Shown in pieces: positions 1 to 63,199 of a stretch of DNA of 64,000 nt. The DNA lies in the NCBI GenBank assembly GCA_031276035.1, contig JAISNV010000019.1, positions 62,001-126,000 of the forward strand, read 5' to 3'. A model generated the notes under the pieces. That model did no database searches and was not told the DNA's origin. It was given only the letters and a program-made list of their open reading frames with translations. Positions within the stretch are counted from its first letter, which is position 1. The number at the start of each line of letters is the position of its first letter. A program made the position numbers and the translations under genes. This stretch comes from Bacteroidales bacterium (lineage in GTDB: Bacteria > Bacteroidota > Bacteroidia > Bacteroidales > BM520).

Positions 1-873
1 GCTCTTAAACATAGAGCTCTCGCAGGTATTCACTTTACAGGATCTACATGGACCTTTAACAACTTCTGGAAAACCATCAGCGAAAATATTGAAAACTACG
101 GCACTTATCCGAAAATCGTTGGTGAAACAGGTGGTAAAGATTTCGTTTTCGTTCACAATTCGTCTAATCCTATCGAAGTGGCTACCGCACTCGTTCGCGG
201 CTCATTCGAGTATCAAGGACAAAAATGTTCGGCTTCTTCGCGTTCTTATATACCAAAATCTTTATGGAAAGAAATTAAGGAAGAGCTTGAAAAACAAGTT
301 TCCGAAATTAAAATGGGTGATGTTGCCGATTTCGGCGTAACATTGGGTGCCGTAATTGATGAAGCTGCTTTCGACAGTATAATGAAATATGTTAACAAAG
401 CTAAGGAAGATAAAGATTGTGAATTTATTACCGGCGGTAAAGCTGATAAGAGCAAGGGATATTTTATTGAACCTACGATTATCAAAACAACTAATCCTCA
501 TTCTGATACAATGGTTAACGAATTATTCGGACCGGTATTGACTATTTATGTTTATGATGATGAAAAGTTAGATGAAGCTATTGAACTTTGTAATACAACA
601 TCTCCGTATTCGCTAACAGGTTCTATATTCTCTAATGACAGAGCCGCAACATTGAAGATATTTGAAAAACTTCAGTATGCTTCTGGTAATTTATATATCA
701 ACGATAAATCAACAGGTGCTGTTGTAGGTATGCAACCATTCGGCGGCGGAAGAGCATCCGGAACTAATGATAAGGCGGGAAGTAAACTCAATTTATTCCG
801 TTGGACAAGTCCGAGAGCTATAAAGGAAGTTTTCGTTCCTCCTACACATTTCAGTTATCCTTATATGAAATAG
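1..873 (+). CDS. pruA: 1-pyrroline-5-carboxylate dehydrogenase, C-terminal part
   Basis: The reading frame is open from base 1, so the gene begins outside the window; 290 codons are visible. It is an NAD(P)-dependent aldehyde dehydrogenase that oxidises P5C/glutamate semialdehyde to glutamate, the last step of proline catabolism, in the cytoplasm. Seen: GETGGKDF with the general-base Glu (visible residue 42), and YQGQKCSA with the catalytic Cys (visible residue 76), in the spacing and wording typical of P5CDH rather than other ALDHs. The C-terminal PFGGGRASGTNDKAG motif is also typical. A hairpin terminator follows at 921-952, so it ends its transcription unit. An internal ATG at 178 is not a start because homology continues upstream of it. 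Confidence 0.93.
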   Translation, partial: ALKHRALAGIHFTGSTWTFNNFWKTISENIENYGTYPKIVGETGGKDFVFVHNSSNPIEVATALVRGSFEYQGQKCSASSRSYIPKSLWKEIKEELEKQVSEIKMGDVADFGVTLGAVIDEAAFDSIMKYVNKAKEDKDCEFITGGKADKSKGYFIEPTIIKTTNPHSDTMVNELFGPVLTIYVYDDEKLDEAIELCNTTSPYSLTGSIFSNDRAATLKIFEKLQYASGNLYINDKSTGAVVGMQPFGGGRASGTNDKAGSKLNLFRWTSPRAIKEVFVPPTHFSYPYMK

Positions 874-920
874 TTACTTTCGGATTTAATCTCGAATTCT
901 TAAAACTATAACATAATAAA

Positions 921-952
921 AAAGCAGACTCAAATATGGGTCTGCTTTTTTT
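921..952 (+). terminator. Rho-independent terminator after P5C dehydrogenase
   Basis: A 9-bp perfect stem (AAAGCAGAC at 921-929 with GTCTGCTTT at 940-948), a 10-nt loop and a T-run to 952. It lies 47 bases after the stop codon of the upstream gene. Confidence 0.85.
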
Positions 953-1090
953 ATAGTAATATACGTTGTTTGATTTATTTAACAGAATATAAGAGTTGTT
1001 TCGTTGCTACACAATTTTCAATAACAGAAATTCATGTAGTTTCTTCCATATTAACTGTGAAGAATCTGACTCGTAATCCAATACTTAAAA

Positions 1091-1852
1091 TTACAGTTCA
1101 ATTGCTATAGGACAATGATCCGAAAACATCACATCCGAATGAATTTCAGCGGATTTCAATCTGTCTTTTAAACCTTCGGTTACAATATGATAATCTATAC
1201 GCCAGCCAAGGTTTTTAGCTCTGGCATTAGATCTAAAACTCCACCAGGTATATTGTTCCGGATCTTTATTGAATTCTCTGAAAGCATCAACTAATCCAGA
1301 ATCTACATATTTATCAAACCATTCTCTTTCTTCAGGAAGAAATCCGGACATCTTTTCATGTTTTTCAGGTTTGTTAATATCAATTGGTTTGTGGCAAATA
1401 TTATGATCGCCGCAAATCAAGATATTCGGTCGAGTTTTCTTCAAATCATTAATATAATTATGAAATAAATCCAGAAATTGCATTTTTAATCCTTGACGTT
1501 CTTCGCCTGAAGTTCCGGATGGAATATAAACACAAATTATACTAACATCTCCGATATCTGCTCTGATAACACGACCTTCGGCATCAAAGAAATCATTGCC
1601 TATACCTTTACTGAAAAAATCGATTTTCAATTTGCTGAAAATTGCTACGCCACTATAACCTTTCTTCTGTGCGGAATTAATTATAATATGTTCATATCCT
1701 AATTCCCTAAATAAATTAAGATCGATATCGCTTTCCAAAGCTTTTATTTCTTGTAAACAAAGCACATCAGGATCAACTTTTTTAAGCCAATCTAATAAAC
1801 CTTTGTTTAATGAAGCTCTGATTCCATTTACATTATACGAAATTACCTTCAT
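1091..1852 (-). CDS. xth: Exodeoxyribonuclease III / AP endonuclease
   Basis: Mg-dependent AP endonuclease and 3'-5' exonuclease of base-excision repair (endonuclease/exonuclease/phosphatase superfamily), cytoplasmic. Its 253 aa match the family's usual length. Motifs in order: SYNVNGIRA with Asn7, LCLQEIK with metal-binding Glu35, VYIPSG with the active-site Tyr, CGDHN with the catalytic Asp/Asn pair, WRIDYH, and SDHCP with the catalytic His near residue 246. The start is 5 bases after the metK stop, so the two genes form an operon. Its expression is therefore probably under the SAM-II riboswitch ahead of metK. The pairing of metK with a repair gene looks positional rather than functional. 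Confidence 0.94.
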   Translation of the reverse strand: MKVISYNVNGIRASLNKGLLDWLKKVDPDVLCLQEIKALESDIDLNLFRELGYEHIIINSAQKKGYSGVAIFSKLKIDFFSKGIGNDFFDAEGRVIRADIGDVSIICVYIPSGTSGEERQGLKMQFLDLFHNYINDLKKTRPNILICGDHNICHKPIDINKPEKHEKMSGFLPEEREWFDKYVDSGLVDAFREFNKDPEQYTWWSFRSNARAKNLGWRIDYHIVTEGLKDRLKSAEIHSDVMFSDHCPIAIEL

Positions 1853-1857
1853 TTAGA

Positions 1858-3150
1858 CTAATTTTTAAAGAAAATATTTTTGATTTTATCTACATAATCA
1901 AGTTTTTCCCAAGTAAACAATTCAACTTCCAATTCTTTTTCTCCCGAATATTGAGATTTAAAAACTTTTTTAACAATTTGGGGAGTCCTTCCCAAATGTC
2001 CGTATGAAGCTGTTTCCGAATAAATAGGATTAAGAAGTTTCAATCTTTGAATGATCGAAACCGGACGTAAATCAAAGATTTCACCAACTTTCAGGGCAAT
2101 TTCTCCATCAGTAAGTTTAACCTTTGATGTTCCGTAAGTATCAATAAAAATATTTATAGGTTCGGCAACACCAATTGCATAAGAGACTTGAACGAGAATT
2201 TCATCTGCTACTCCTGCCGCAACCAAATTTTTAGCAATATGGCGTGCTGCATAAGCTGCAGAACGATCAACTTTCGACGGATCTTTTCCCGAAAAAGCGC
2301 CGCCGCCGTGGGGAGCCTTTCCTCCGTATGTATCCACAATAATCTTTCTGCCGGTAAGTCCTGTGTCTCCTGCCGGGCCACCGATTACAAACTTTCCGGT
2401 CGGATTAACATGAAGGGTATAATTATTATCAAAAAGTTTTTGCGTTCTCACATCTAATTTTTTCACTACACGCGGAAGCAGAATATCAATCACATCTTTA
2501 TTAATCTTAGAAAGCATCTCCGCATCGGCATTTGCAATATCTTCAGGAGAATTTGATTTTGGTCTGATAAAATCATCATGTTGTGTTGAAACCACTATTG
2601 TATGAATTCTTTTCGGTGATTTATCATCATTATACTCTATAGTTACTTGCGATTTCGCATCCGGGCGTAAATATTTCATTTCTCTGTTTTCGCGACGGAT
2701 ATCCGCTAATTCCTTAAGTATAACGTGAGAAATCTCCAAAGTCAAGGGCATGTAATTTTCCGTTTCGCGCGATGCGTATCCAAACATCATTCCTTGATCG
2801 CCGGCACCTTGATTAAGAGGATCTGTTCTCTCTACACCTCTGTTAATATCAGGAGATTGTTCATGAATTGAAGACAGAACTCCGCAGGAATCACCTTGGA
2901 ATCCATATTCACTTTTAGTATAACCTATTCTATTGATAACATCACGGGCAATTTTCTGTACGTCAACATAAGCATTCGACTTAACTTCTCCGGAGATGAT
3001 AACCTGTCCGGTAGTTACTAAAGTTTCGCAAGCAACTTTCGAATTGCAATCGAAAGCCAAAAGTTCGTCTAATATTGAATCTGAAATTTGGTCTGATACT
3101 TTATCCGGATGACCTTCGGATACAGACTCTGAAGTAAATAAATAACTCAT
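1858..3150 (-). CDS. metK: S-adenosylmethionine synthase
   Basis: Makes S-adenosylmethionine from methionine and ATP, releasing phosphate and diphosphate; a cytoplasmic tetramer. At 430 aa it is longer than the E. coli enzyme (384 aa) but looks normal for this phylum. Seen: [18 protein letters not shown] at residues 7-24 (ATP/methionine site), GAGDQG at 115-120, and the phosphate-loop motif GGGAFSGKD near residue 280. It is first in an operon with xth. The roughly 110-nt leader carries a SAM-II-type riboswitch (3208-3260) behind a TATCTTTG promoter, so the product probably represses its own synthesis. Confidence 0.97.
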
Positions 3151-3207
3151 ATATAATTTATTTTAATATAAAAACTATGAAAGATGTAAACGAAAGCGAG
3201 GAGAAAT

Positions 3208-3260
3208 ATTATTTTAGCATTTTTTCTCGTGGTTGCAATCAATTCAAATCTTTCCACTAA
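3208..3260 (-). promoter_or_regulatory. SAM-II (metA-type) riboswitch upstream of metK
   Basis: On the minus strand, GTGG (3257-3254) pairs with CCAC (3232-3229). The loop carries AAAGATTTGA and GATTGCAA directly before the closing CCAC, followed by an A-rich joint and ATGCTAAAA (3220-3212). This order (stem, GATTGCA at the end of the loop, A-rich linker, GCTAAA) is the conserved layout of the SAM-II pseudoknot, a class known from alphaproteobacteria and Bacteroidota. The position between a promoter (3277-3270) and metK fits the role. It was recognised by eye; no covariance model was run. Confidence 0.78.
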
Positions 3261-3269
3261 TTAATTTTG

Positions 3270-3277
3270 CAAAGATA
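3270..3277 (-). promoter_or_regulatory. Promoter -7 box for metK-xth
   Basis: TATCTTTG on the minus strand, matching the Bacteroidota TAnnTTTG box, about 120 bases before the metK ATG and immediately before the riboswitch. Confidence 0.75.
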
Positions 3278-3383
3278 ACATAATAATTAAAAATTTGGAA
3301 TTACTAATAAAGAAAATTATTTTTCAAATTCAATTTATAAATGTAATTCATTTGTCCAGAACGAAATAAGAAATATTTTTTTA

Positions 3384-3446
3384 GAACACTCAGGGTTTAA
3401 ATCACAAGTGGCCGAAAGAAATAATCTCCCGACCACTTGGGTGTTC
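3384..3446. repeat. Two-tier inverted repeat
   Basis: The outer arms GAACAC (3384-3389) and GTGTTC (3441-3446) enclose the inner arms CAAGTGG (3405-3411) and CCACTTG (3433-3439). The inner stem can be extended by CG/CG after one mismatch. No T-run follows on either strand, so this is not a standard terminator. It lies 41 bases past the stop of the minus-strand gene at 3487-3840. It could be a small mobile-element remnant or an RNA structure at that gene's 3' end. Confidence 0.5.
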
Positions 3447-3486
3447 AATAAAGGACTTTTTACAACGACAATATGACAATAGTCTA

Positions 3487-3840
3487 TTAAAATATAAATA
3501 TAGACTTTAGCACATACTGGTTATAATAATGTAATCCATAGTCACCTGATGATGTTGTTACAGTAATTGTTAAATTACTCAGACTTGTATCAACCATAAA
3601 AATAGCAATAGAATAATAATTTCCTCCCTGATAACAAGCAGCACCAATTACTACACTTTTTTGTTCCACCATAACATCATTATTGGAATTAACCCAAGTT
3701 ACTGTAATTGTAGCAGTAGTGAGAAACTCAGTAGTTTGAACCTCAACTTCAAGAGGCCCCATCTTCTTACTTTGTCCGAACATTGCCGTTGAAAACAAAA
3801 ATAATGGCAACAACACCAATAAGAACTTAAAATTTTTCAT
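3487..3840 (-). CDS. Small secreted protein of unknown function
   Basis: 117 aa with a clear Sec signal peptide: KNFKFLLVLLPLFLFSTAMFG with probable cleavage after residue 22. The mature part is Thr/Val-rich with alternating hydrophobic residues (TEFLTTATITVTWV, NLTITVTTSSG), which suggests a small beta-sandwich. One Cys (GAACYQG) lies mid-protein. I do not recognise a family. It stands alone, with metK downstream on the same strand beyond a structured inverted repeat. The signal peptide and normal codon use suggest it is a real gene. Confidence 0.65.
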   Translation of the reverse strand: MKNFKFLLVLLPLFLFSTAMFGQSKKMGPLEVEVQTTEFLTTATITVTWVNSNNDVMVEQKSVVIGAACYQGGNYYSIAIFMVDTSLSNLTITVTTSSGDYGLHYYNQYVLKSIFIF

Positions 3841-4039
3841 AATTTCATCCCTTTAATAAATTTATTATGCAAAGATAAAATTTTATTATAATAGTTAATA
3901 ATATGTAAATTATATTTACGCTTTTTATATTTACCGTTTTTGCATTATAACAATTTATATATTAACAAAATTATTTTTCAATAAATATTCTATAAACAGA
4001 ATCATAAAGTTGCAAGGTAAATATTTAAAGTTATTTGGC

Positions 4040-4047
4040 TAACTTTG
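4040..4047 (+). promoter_or_regulatory. Promoter -7 box for the methyltransferase gene
   Basis: TAACTTTG matches TAnnTTTG, 16 bases before the ATG at 4064. The mRNA leader would be about 10 nt. Confidence 0.6.
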
Positions 4048-4063
4048 CAGCAAACTACAAAAT

Positions 4064-4762
4064 ATGAGCAAAAATGATGTTTACGGTAAAGGTTTGTTAG
4101 ATTATTACCAAGGTAAAAAAGACGCTGAATTTATTGTGGAAAGCGATATTGCCGAAACTGAAATATGGCCTATCAAATTATTTTTCAGAGATTATTATGA
4201 TATGCCGAAAATTGAAAAAACCGCATTGAAAGAAGCAAAAGGAAAAACTCTTGATGTTGGCGCCGGCGCCGGTAGCCACTCGCTTATACTTCAAGAAAAA
4301 GGATTTGACGTTACAGCTATAGATATTTCTCCGGGAGCCATACAGGTAATGCAAAAAAGAGGATTAAAAAAAGTGTTGCATGAAGATTTCTTTGCTTTAA
4401 ATGAAAATGAGAAATACGATACTATATTGATGTTAATGAATGGCATTGGAATTACCGGCAACATCAATAATCTTGATAATTTTTTTATTAAAGCAAAAAA
4501 CCTATTGAACAAAAACGGAAAGATTATTTTAGATTCTTCGGATTTGATTTATTTATATAATGATGGAACTTTTCCGGAAAAATATTATGGAGAAATAAAC
4601 TACAGATTCATATATAACAATGAACATGGGGAAGAATTTTCCTGGATTTTTGTAGATTTTGAAACTTTGCGCAGATATGCGGAATCAAACGGTTTTACTT
4701 GCGAAAAAATATATGAAGATGCTCACTTTATGTATCTTGCTAAGCTGATGATTAACATTTAA
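4064..4762 (+). CDS. Class I SAM-dependent methyltransferase
   Basis: A 232-aa cytoplasmic methyltransferase with a Rossmann fold. Motif I is TLDVGAGAGSHS (about residues 62-73), the acidic residue at the end of strand 2 is in TAIDIS (Asp87), and a motif III-like NKNGKIILDSSD follows. It resembles the Methyltransf_11/25 type. The substrate cannot be told from sequence. A promoter box lies just upstream. Its 3' end overlaps by 4 bases the 3' end of the convergent acetyltransferase gene. Confidence 0.85.
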   Translation: MSKNDVYGKGLLDYYQGKKDAEFIVESDIAETEIWPIKLFFRDYYDMPKIEKTALKEAKGKTLDVGAGAGSHSLILQEKGFDVTAIDISPGAIQVMQKRGLKKVLHEDFFALNENEKYDTILMLMNGIGITGNINNLDNFFIKAKNLLNKNGKIILDSSDLIYLYNDGTFPEKYYGEINYRFIYNNEHGEEFSWIFVDFETLRRYAESNGFTCEKIYEDAHFMYLAKLMINI

Positions 4763-61867: not shown

Positions 61868-63199
61868 ATGAATTCCATAGGAAAAATATTATCTCTATAC
61901 GAACTTACAAGTTTTATTCAGGCTGAAATAAATAATGCCTTTTATGTTCCGATTTGGGTTAAGGCGGAACTCGTTAAATTAAATTATTACCAGCAATCTG
62001 GACATTGTTTTCCCGATCTTGTTGAAAAAGACGAAGGAAAAATTAAGGCACAAATCAGAGCTACAATATGGAATCACGCTTATGTAATGATTGCTTCTAA
62101 GTTTAAGAAAATTACAGGCTCAACAATCACTCCCGGAATGCAGCTACTTTTTCAAGTACAAGTTTCCTTTTCTCCATTATACGGAATGTCTTTAAATATT
62201 CTTGATATTGATCCGACTTTCACTTTGGGCGCTTTGGCTTATGAGAAACAACTGAGTATTGACAAGCTCACAAAGGCAAGTGTAATCAATCTAAACAAAG
62301 AAAAGCCGATACCGCTTTTGTTGCAAAATTTGGCAATCATTTCTGTAGAAAGCAGCAAAGGTTATAATGATTTTATTCAAACTATTAATGAATATAAAGA
62401 TTTCTACACAATAAAACACAAGATATTTCCTGCGGTTTTACAAGGAGATGCGGCAATTACTTCTCAAATTTCAGCTTTAAATGAAATTAAGAAATCTTAT
62501 AAAAGATTTGATGCCGTGCTGATTCTCAGAGGTGGTGGCGCTGATGTGGGAATGAACTGTTATGATAATTTTGAACTCGCATATAATGTAGCTACTTTTC
62601 CAATTCCTGTTATCACGGGAATCGGGCATTCTACCGACAATACAATTGTTGATATGGTTGCCGCCGCCAATATGAAAACCCCGACGGAAGCGGCAAATTT
62701 TATTATTTCTAAATTTGTAACTTTCGAACAAAATTTAAACAAAGTTAAAAATAGAATCATTGAAAGATGTAAGGATTTAATAGCAGAAGAAATGTATTAT
62801 CTCGACAAACTATCAACCAATATTGTAAATCAAAGCGAAGATTTGTTAGAAGACTGCTTTGGCGAATTAAATATTATGTATAAAAATATTGCTAATAATA
62901 TTACGACAATATTGATAAAAGAGGATAATAGTATCTTAACCAATATTAATTCAATAAAACTCAACTCAAAAATATTGATTAATAGTCAAAACCACAATCT
63001 TAAACTTTTTGAATCAAAACAAAATTTATTAAATCCCGAAAACGTTTTAAAAAGAGGTTTCAGTATTACTTATTACGATGGAAAAACGGTTAAAAATGCA
63101 AATGAAGTTCCTGAAAATGCGGAGATTGAAACAATTCTATTTAATGGAAAAATAAATAGTGTAACTAAACATATTAGTAAGAATGAGCAAAACAACTAA
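61868..63199 (+). CDS. xseA: Exodeoxyribonuclease VII large subunit
   Basis: 443 aa. Degrades single-stranded DNA in both directions with XseB. N-terminal OB-fold (1-105, WVKAELVKLNYYQQSGHCFPDLVEKDEGKI), catalytic domain (about 120-310, with LQGDAAITSQI, DAVLILRGGGADVGMNCYDN, VITGIGHSTDNTIVDMVA and KTPTEAANF), then coiled coil and the end motif LKRGFSITYYDGK. Slightly short against the usual 400-460 aa. The next gene overlaps it by 17 bases. Confidence 0.94.
   Translation: MNSIGKILSLYELTSFIQAEINNAFYVPIWVKAELVKLNYYQQSGHCFPDLVEKDEGKIKAQIRATIWNHAYVMIASKFKKITGSTITPGMQLLFQVQVSFSPLYGMSLNILDIDPTFTLGALAYEKQLSIDKLTKASVINLNKEKPIPLLLQNLAIISVESSKGYNDFIQTINEYKDFYTIKHKIFPAVLQGDAAITSQISALNEIKKSYKRFDAVLILRGGGADVGMNCYDNFELAYNVATFPIPVITGIGHSTDNTIVDMVAAANMKTPTEAANFIISKFVTFEQNLNKVKNRIIERCKDLIAEEMYYLDKLSTNIVNQSEDLLEDCFGELNIMYKNIANNITTILIKEDNSILTNINSIKLNSKILINSQNHNLKLFESKQNLLNPENVLKRGFSITYYDGKTVKNANEVPENAEIETILFNGKINSVTKHISKNEQNN

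Follow-up and report, generated by a model that had tools for sequence, protein, structure and literature searches.

How a leader predicted to bind SAM acts on a metK gene that has no Shine-Dalgarno sequence, and whether its action extends to the xth gene directly behind, are the questions raised by a locus in a Bacteroidales genome (GenBank assembly GCA_031276035.1, contig JAISNV010000019.1, forward-strand positions 62,001 to 126,000). This 64,000-nt stretch is referred to below as the window, and all coordinates count from its first letter. A preliminary description, made from the sequence alone, had placed SAM-II elements and a promoter on the minus strand at 3208-3277, ahead of metK and xth, and had proposed that SAM also tunes xth. 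Here we ask which riboswitch family is present, what lies between the aptamer and metK, and how SAM binding might be read out.

Identification of the aptamer and its probable operon

Scanning the 64 kb window with cmscan returned one Rfam match at gathering level, RF01726 at 3263-3204 (-), with 66 bits against a gathering score of 44 and an E-value of 1.7e-10, covering positions 1-60 of the 60 in the model; a scan restricted to 3000-3500 at E ≤ 1 recovered it again. RF00521, the model with which the preliminary description had proposed to check the element, had no match in 3000-3500 at a cut-off as loose as E 1, which rules it out as the family of this RNA; the matching model is RF01726. By sequence, 3263-3204 (-) is confirmed as a riboswitch of the SAM-II (long loop) family preceding metK, with SAM binding predicted, and in this respect it is an ordinary further member of an already known family. 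The genome of the window carries one copy of the aptamer.

P1 was the single helix returned by RNAalifold on an unguided alignment of 42 leaders, two of which have a GC to AU change in it. P2 is left unmodelled in the 60-position covariance model of Rfam, and we followed it in the sequences. In the window, A3243, U3242, U3241 and G3240 can pair with U3211, A3210, A3209 and U3208, with one G.U (3240.3211), and the sister locus L005 can form five pairs, with G-C at the place of this G.U. Across all loci the P2 run was found in 77 of 161, weakly above the 60.7 obtained for mismatched pairs. Position 3208, the end given in the preliminary description, is the last base of P2, and the SAM-II elements it had recognized on the minus strand are borne out by the full-length match and by a P1 and P2 that can form.

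The promoter proposed ahead of the aptamer also held up, as a TATCTTTG box at 3277-3270 (-) that ends 12 nt before P1. TAnnTTTG is the -7 box of the Bacteroidota promoter type, and the box was assigned by this motif. In 140 of 160 loci, TAnnTTTG occurs in the 45 nt upstream of P1, whereas a control stretch lying 200-245 nt upstream has it in 4 of 158. Farther upstream, an ORF of 117 aa at 3487-3840 (-) has a signal-peptide-like start, a TATCTTTG box of its own at 3877-3870 and no NCBIfam match.

The metK AUG (3150-3148) lies 57 nt past the end of P2, leaving 53 nt of leader past the Rfam match, and the sequence preceding it has no Shine-Dalgarno-like element. As described previously, xth begins five bases past metK (1852 vs 1858), and both families are supported by NCBIfam models (Table 1). 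A terminator scan of 850-4100 found no terminator-like site, and no further minus-strand TAnnTTTG box occurs between 404 and 3269. Taken together with the 5-nt gap, these results make a single transcript likely, and metK and xth are likely to be carried on one mRNA. By eye, the sequence GCAGACUC-AAAUAU-GGGUCUGC at 924-952, 139 nt past the end of xth and set between A and U runs, looks like a two-way terminator; it is absent from the list of the terminator scan.

Table 1. Features of the metK leader and probable operon in the window, with the basis of each assignment.
Feature	Coordinates	Strand	Basis
TATCTTTG box, -7 box type (TAnnTTTG)	3270..3277	-	position from sequence scan
SAM-II (long loop) aptamer, RF01726	3204..3263	-	cmscan, full-length
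P1 hairpin, 3257-3254 (GUGG) with 3232-3229 (CCAC)	3229..3257	-	Rfam alignment; RNAalifold
P2 pseudoknot, 3243-3240 with 3211-3208	3208..3243	-	sequence; 4-pair run
Anti-aptamer element	3179..3206	-	minimum-energy fold; conserved and covarying in relatives
Weak candidate partner of metK start region (-4..+8)	3166..3178	-	best local complement; without thermodynamic support at this locus
metK, methionine adenosyltransferase, 430 aa	1858..3150	-	TIGR01034, 506 bits
xth, exodeoxyribonuclease III, 253 aa	1091..1852	-	TIGR00633, 292 bits; ORF coordinates

Distribution of the aptamer and its linkage to metK

A family search detected the aptamer in 37 of 60 relatives, and searches of the order and the phylum detected it in 278 of 393 and 64 of 394 genomes, respectively; these samples overlap. 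In the part of the 2010 survey (Weinberg et al., 2010; PMC2864571) drawn on here, Bacteroidetes and marine samples are given as sources of "SAM-II long loops". Among the matches listed, 203 loci were assembled from the three overlapping genome searches and one pattern scan of named contigs; the pattern scan favours aptamers of the typed pattern, and some contigs enter the set twice. Again among the matches listed, metK lies behind the aptamer in 200 of the 203 loci, and in the remaining three (L116, L123 and L157), where no metK match was found, the aptamer sits no more than about 65 nt from where the available sequence ends, on the strand running off it. The linkage to metX/metA genes given in the preliminary description does not apply in this phylum, where the linked gene is metK. 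Two SAM-II matches per genome were seen in G009, G480 and G599, the second one in G009 scoring 32.7 bits, under the cut-off.

A conserved leader element antisense to the aptamer

While the earlier interpretation of a SAM-II aptamer preceding metK stands, as RF01726 and with metK behind most loci, it had missed a switching element in the leader. The distance from the aptamer to metK is about 50-150 nt in most loci. Thinning by k-mers left 165 non-redundant leaders of 200, and in these the duplex between the aptamer 5′ half and the leader had a mean energy of -17.0 kcal/mol, compared with -12.9 kcal/mol for dinucleotide-shuffled leaders (p 5e-27) and -14.4 kcal/mol when the leader came from another species (p 1e-15). 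Neither a control stretch on the upstream side of the aptamer (p 0.46) nor, in the initial run of the test, the aptamer 3′ half differed from shuffles. When each family of the order was represented by a single locus, 26 of 27 loci did better than their shuffle mean and 22 of 27 did better than the mismatched mean, and the corresponding counts for loci from the phylum search were 29 of 29 and 23 of 29.

The complementarity was resolved to single positions by a masked covariation analysis, in which one aptamer base was masked per round, the remainder aligned and the partner of the masked base then read, a procedure that guards against circular alignment. The 161 of the 165 leaders with the GG....TTTG register entered this analysis and those of the start codon, and four were dropped. 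Mean z over nine positions was 4.45, vs 0.53 for the reversed leader, and mean z values ranged from -0.5 to 0.7 over the whole set of controls, which comprised reversed leaders, stretches upstream and codons of metK. The six variable loop positions were each complementary at levels well above permutation (p ≤ 0.0014). The element scored above threshold in 160 of 161 leaders, at a median 19-44 nt past GCUAAA, with a median of 30 nt between its end and the AUG. In a MAFFT alignment of 42 of the 99 candidate leaders, the helix, picked after inspecting the alignment, had 71.1% of its cells paired, vs 36-51% when slid by 1-3 columns, and its covariation score was reached by none of 500 shuffles; RNAalifold did not recover this helix from the 42 leaders when their alignment was unguided, and found P1 alone.

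Comparison of the leaders shows, at the level of sequence, a conserved element antisense to the aptamer 5′ half, that is, to the 5′ strand of P1 and the P2-forming loop. Because the anti-aptamer pairing and the aptamer use the same strand, they are mutually exclusive. Many leaders from the phylum search (among L031-L053, e.g., L033, L036, L042 and L050) carry by eye UUUAGC or UUUAGU, antisense to the aptamer GCUAAA, which suggests that in another part of the class the aptamer can be undone in a second way.

The leader in the window, taken up to the AUG, has the anti-aptamer hairpin as its minimum-energy fold (-15.7 kcal/mol). Its core pairs 3185-3179 (AUCUUUC) with 3254-3248 (GAAAGAU), and further pairs join 3193-3187 to 3246-3242 and 3240-3239, 3197-3196 to 3236-3235, and 3206-3201 to 3228-3223. 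Taken alone this pairing is not significant, since 8.4% of 1000 shuffles pair equally well and the fold z-score is -1.3. The hairpin is kept when 60 nt of metK are appended, and the fold prediction for the window is not firm because an alternative wins with 40 nt.

The start-codon region and the proposed readout of the switch

In Bacteroidetes, which are without Shine-Dalgarno sequences, initiation is tuned by the structure around the start codon (PMC6847099), and the consulted part of a further report (PMC3155529) likewise describes dependence on start-region structure in Bacteroidota. We looked at the metK start in the same leaders. Covariation with the leader was also found, more weakly than for the anti-aptamer, in the start region (-6..+5), where ten positions had z values of 1.6-3.4 (mean 2.70) against control values of -0.5 to 0.7 in the masked analysis, and a permutation over -6..+6 in 156 leaders gave z 4.5, with z 1.9 also in the reversed-leader control. 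Several measures left start masking weak: energies of start and leader were barely different from those of shuffles (p 0.038, 0.11 and 0.26 for three choices), exact complements of AUGNN were not enriched (15 of 156 vs 13.0 expected), and the best partner of the start overlapped the anti-aptamer no more than a random one (0.289 vs 0.320).

The predicted cost of opening the start was 4.0 kcal/mol with the leader's own aptamer free, 5.7 kcal/mol with the aptamer blocked as if SAM-bound, and 4.7 kcal/mol with aptamers of other species. Blocking the aptamer raised this predicted cost in 116 of 152 leaders (p 8e-16), and exchanging the own aptamer for those of other species raised it in 111 of 152 (p 4e-10); blocking partly raises pairing elsewhere by removing a competitor, so that the other species' aptamers are the cleaner control. 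Predicted pairing of the AUG changed little upon blocking, from 0.57 to 0.65. Of the 161 leaders, 152 entered the opening-cost comparison, 150 that of AUG pairing and 156, with an ATG start required, the start permutation. Start masking was not seen in the window, where blocking the aptamer left the opening cost unchanged (3.06 vs 3.02 kcal/mol); in sister L005 it rose from 3.3 to 5.7. Two leaders from the other genus of the family (L021 and L026, in G006 and G005) have AAG at the aligned metK start; their likely start is at least 21 nt upstream, and their leader is then shorter than computed.

Since the element does not have the look of a terminator and the start region covaries with the leader, SAM-induced masking of a metK start without Shine-Dalgarno sequence appears the likeliest, if unproven, readout, and one in keeping with how initiation is described for this phylum. 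Three other readings were weighed against it. SAM could free the C-rich, G-poor anti-aptamer as a loading site for Rho, hidden in the hairpin without SAM, so that transcription would stop before or early in metK. Riboswitches that use Rho exist (Hollands 2012, as named in the consulted part of PMC12121620), C makes up 30% and G 8% of the element, vs 12% and 10% of the tail behind it, and the genome has a rho gene (a strong match of 612 bits, which is not decisive for attenuation). However, the C-richness of the element follows from its being antisense to a GA-rich strand, and Rho loading does not predict covariation between the start-codon region and the leader; we regard Rho-dependent attenuation as unlikely. 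An intrinsic terminator/antiterminator switch would resemble the many alphaproteobacterial SAM-II RNAs that have terminators behind them, according to the parts of PMC1273637 and PMC2258182 drawn on here. Yet a run of five U within 10 nt past the element occurs in 15 of 160 leaders (9.4%), vs 6.3% of random 10-mers, and a terminator made from the SAM-free hairpin would give metK feedback the wrong sign. With no U-run enrichment and no terminator-like site in 850-4100, we reject this switch as very unlikely.

The AUG within the aptamer (AUGCUAAA) could also be a ribosome loading site or open a small upstream reading frame that SAM hides, similar to the distant start of Sinorhizobium metA. This AUG persists in 156 of 161 leaders, at a distance from metK resembling that in S. 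meliloti, where the Shine-Dalgarno sequence of the riboswitch is required for a start 74 nt downstream, as stated in the consulted part of PMC9373788. The AUG sits, however, in the conserved core, with AUUG instead in 5 of 161 leaders. Of the 156 frames that start from it, 125 terminate ahead of metK, 27 run to the metK start or past it and 4 are fused, with neither length nor phase conserved. The upstream frame was rejected for want of a conserved phase or stop, and the whole reading, which leaves the anti-aptamer unexplained, seems very improbable.

xth and its possible control by SAM

The arrangement aptamer-metK-xth recurs in the same order in G002 of the same genus, whose xth is 84% identical, and this is the only genome of the genus sharing it with the window. 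In G001 and G003, of the same genus (loci L205 and L206), the leader of metK is short and lacks a SAM-II aptamer, and xth is not adjacent. At E ≤ 0.001, no relative of xth was found in G001 and G003 or in G005 and G006 of the family, and G004 has one that is 42% identical. In the four genus genomes where metK was found, the aptamer and an adjacent xth are present or absent together.

More widely, 79 aptamer-metK loci extend 900 nt or more past metK, and xth follows metK in none of them, which rules it out as a conserved partner. Among 88 loci with 100-899 nt past metK, where flanks can be too short to tell, it was seen in L001 and L005 alone. The proposed tuning of xth by SAM is a plausible inference from gene order for this genus only; SAM might well lower xth here too, as a passenger of the local operon, and there is no sign that SAM and DNA repair are linked in a conserved way.

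Proposed mechanism and significance

We put at about 0.6 the probability that the metK leader contains a SAM-II OFF switch in which the anti-aptamer forms without SAM and the start codon is paired with SAM, xth being probably on the same mRNA. Without SAM, the anti-aptamer hairpin would form. With SAM, the aptamer would close and set the pyrimidine-rich element free, and pairing of the freed element and its 3′ flank with the start region of metK (-6..+6, the AUG and second codon) might follow, a step with moderate support. Such pairing would lower initiation at a metK start without Shine-Dalgarno sequence. The leader of the window shows the first part alone, the anti-aptamer, and not the pairing of the start.

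More tentatively, the SAM-II/metK leaders of Bacteroidales could as a group be three-part switches without Shine-Dalgarno sequence, in which one element picks either the aptamer 5′ half (no SAM) or the start and second codon (SAM), and structure-tuned initiation is the regulated step. The conserved anti-aptamer is a concrete, mutable handle on riboswitch action in Bacteroidota, a group without Shine-Dalgarno sequences. Should start-codon masking hold true, it would account for how a translational riboswitch can operate without its usual target, and would turn metK leaders from hundreds of species into a testable set. The anti-aptamer and the possible masking of the start codon are the parts that deserve experiment, and the idea about xth is restricted to the genus.

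Comparison with known systems

By their general description in the part of Corbino et al. (2005; PMC1273637) drawn on here, the alphaproteobacterial SAM-II RNAs of RF00521 have a similar pseudoknot fold and conserved core, and SAM or methionine genes downstream. They differ in being associated with metA/metX-type genes and with terminators or masking of the Shine-Dalgarno sequence, whereas here the gene is metK, with no terminator, no Shine-Dalgarno sequence and no RF00521 match. In the window, no Shine-Dalgarno-like sequence stands ahead of the metK AUG for the aptamer or the switch to mask. The SAM-II riboswitch of S. meliloti metA, as presented in the consulted part of Scheuer et al. (2022; PMC9373788), shares an aptamer that acts on a start tens of nucleotides downstream; there, a Shine-Dalgarno sequence within the riboswitch is masked, while the leader described here has none and has a separate conserved anti-aptamer instead. 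RF01726 itself, going by the used part of Weinberg et al. (2010; PMC2864571), has the aptamer sequence, P1, P2 and Bacteroidetes origin in common with the present locus; that part is silent on its expression platform. A literature search covering mainly open-access articles, with the supplement of PMC2864571 outside it, found no published description of an anti-aptamer or of start-codon masking. The RF01726 model ends before the anti-aptamer leader element found here, and it is this element, between the aptamer and metK, that is new.
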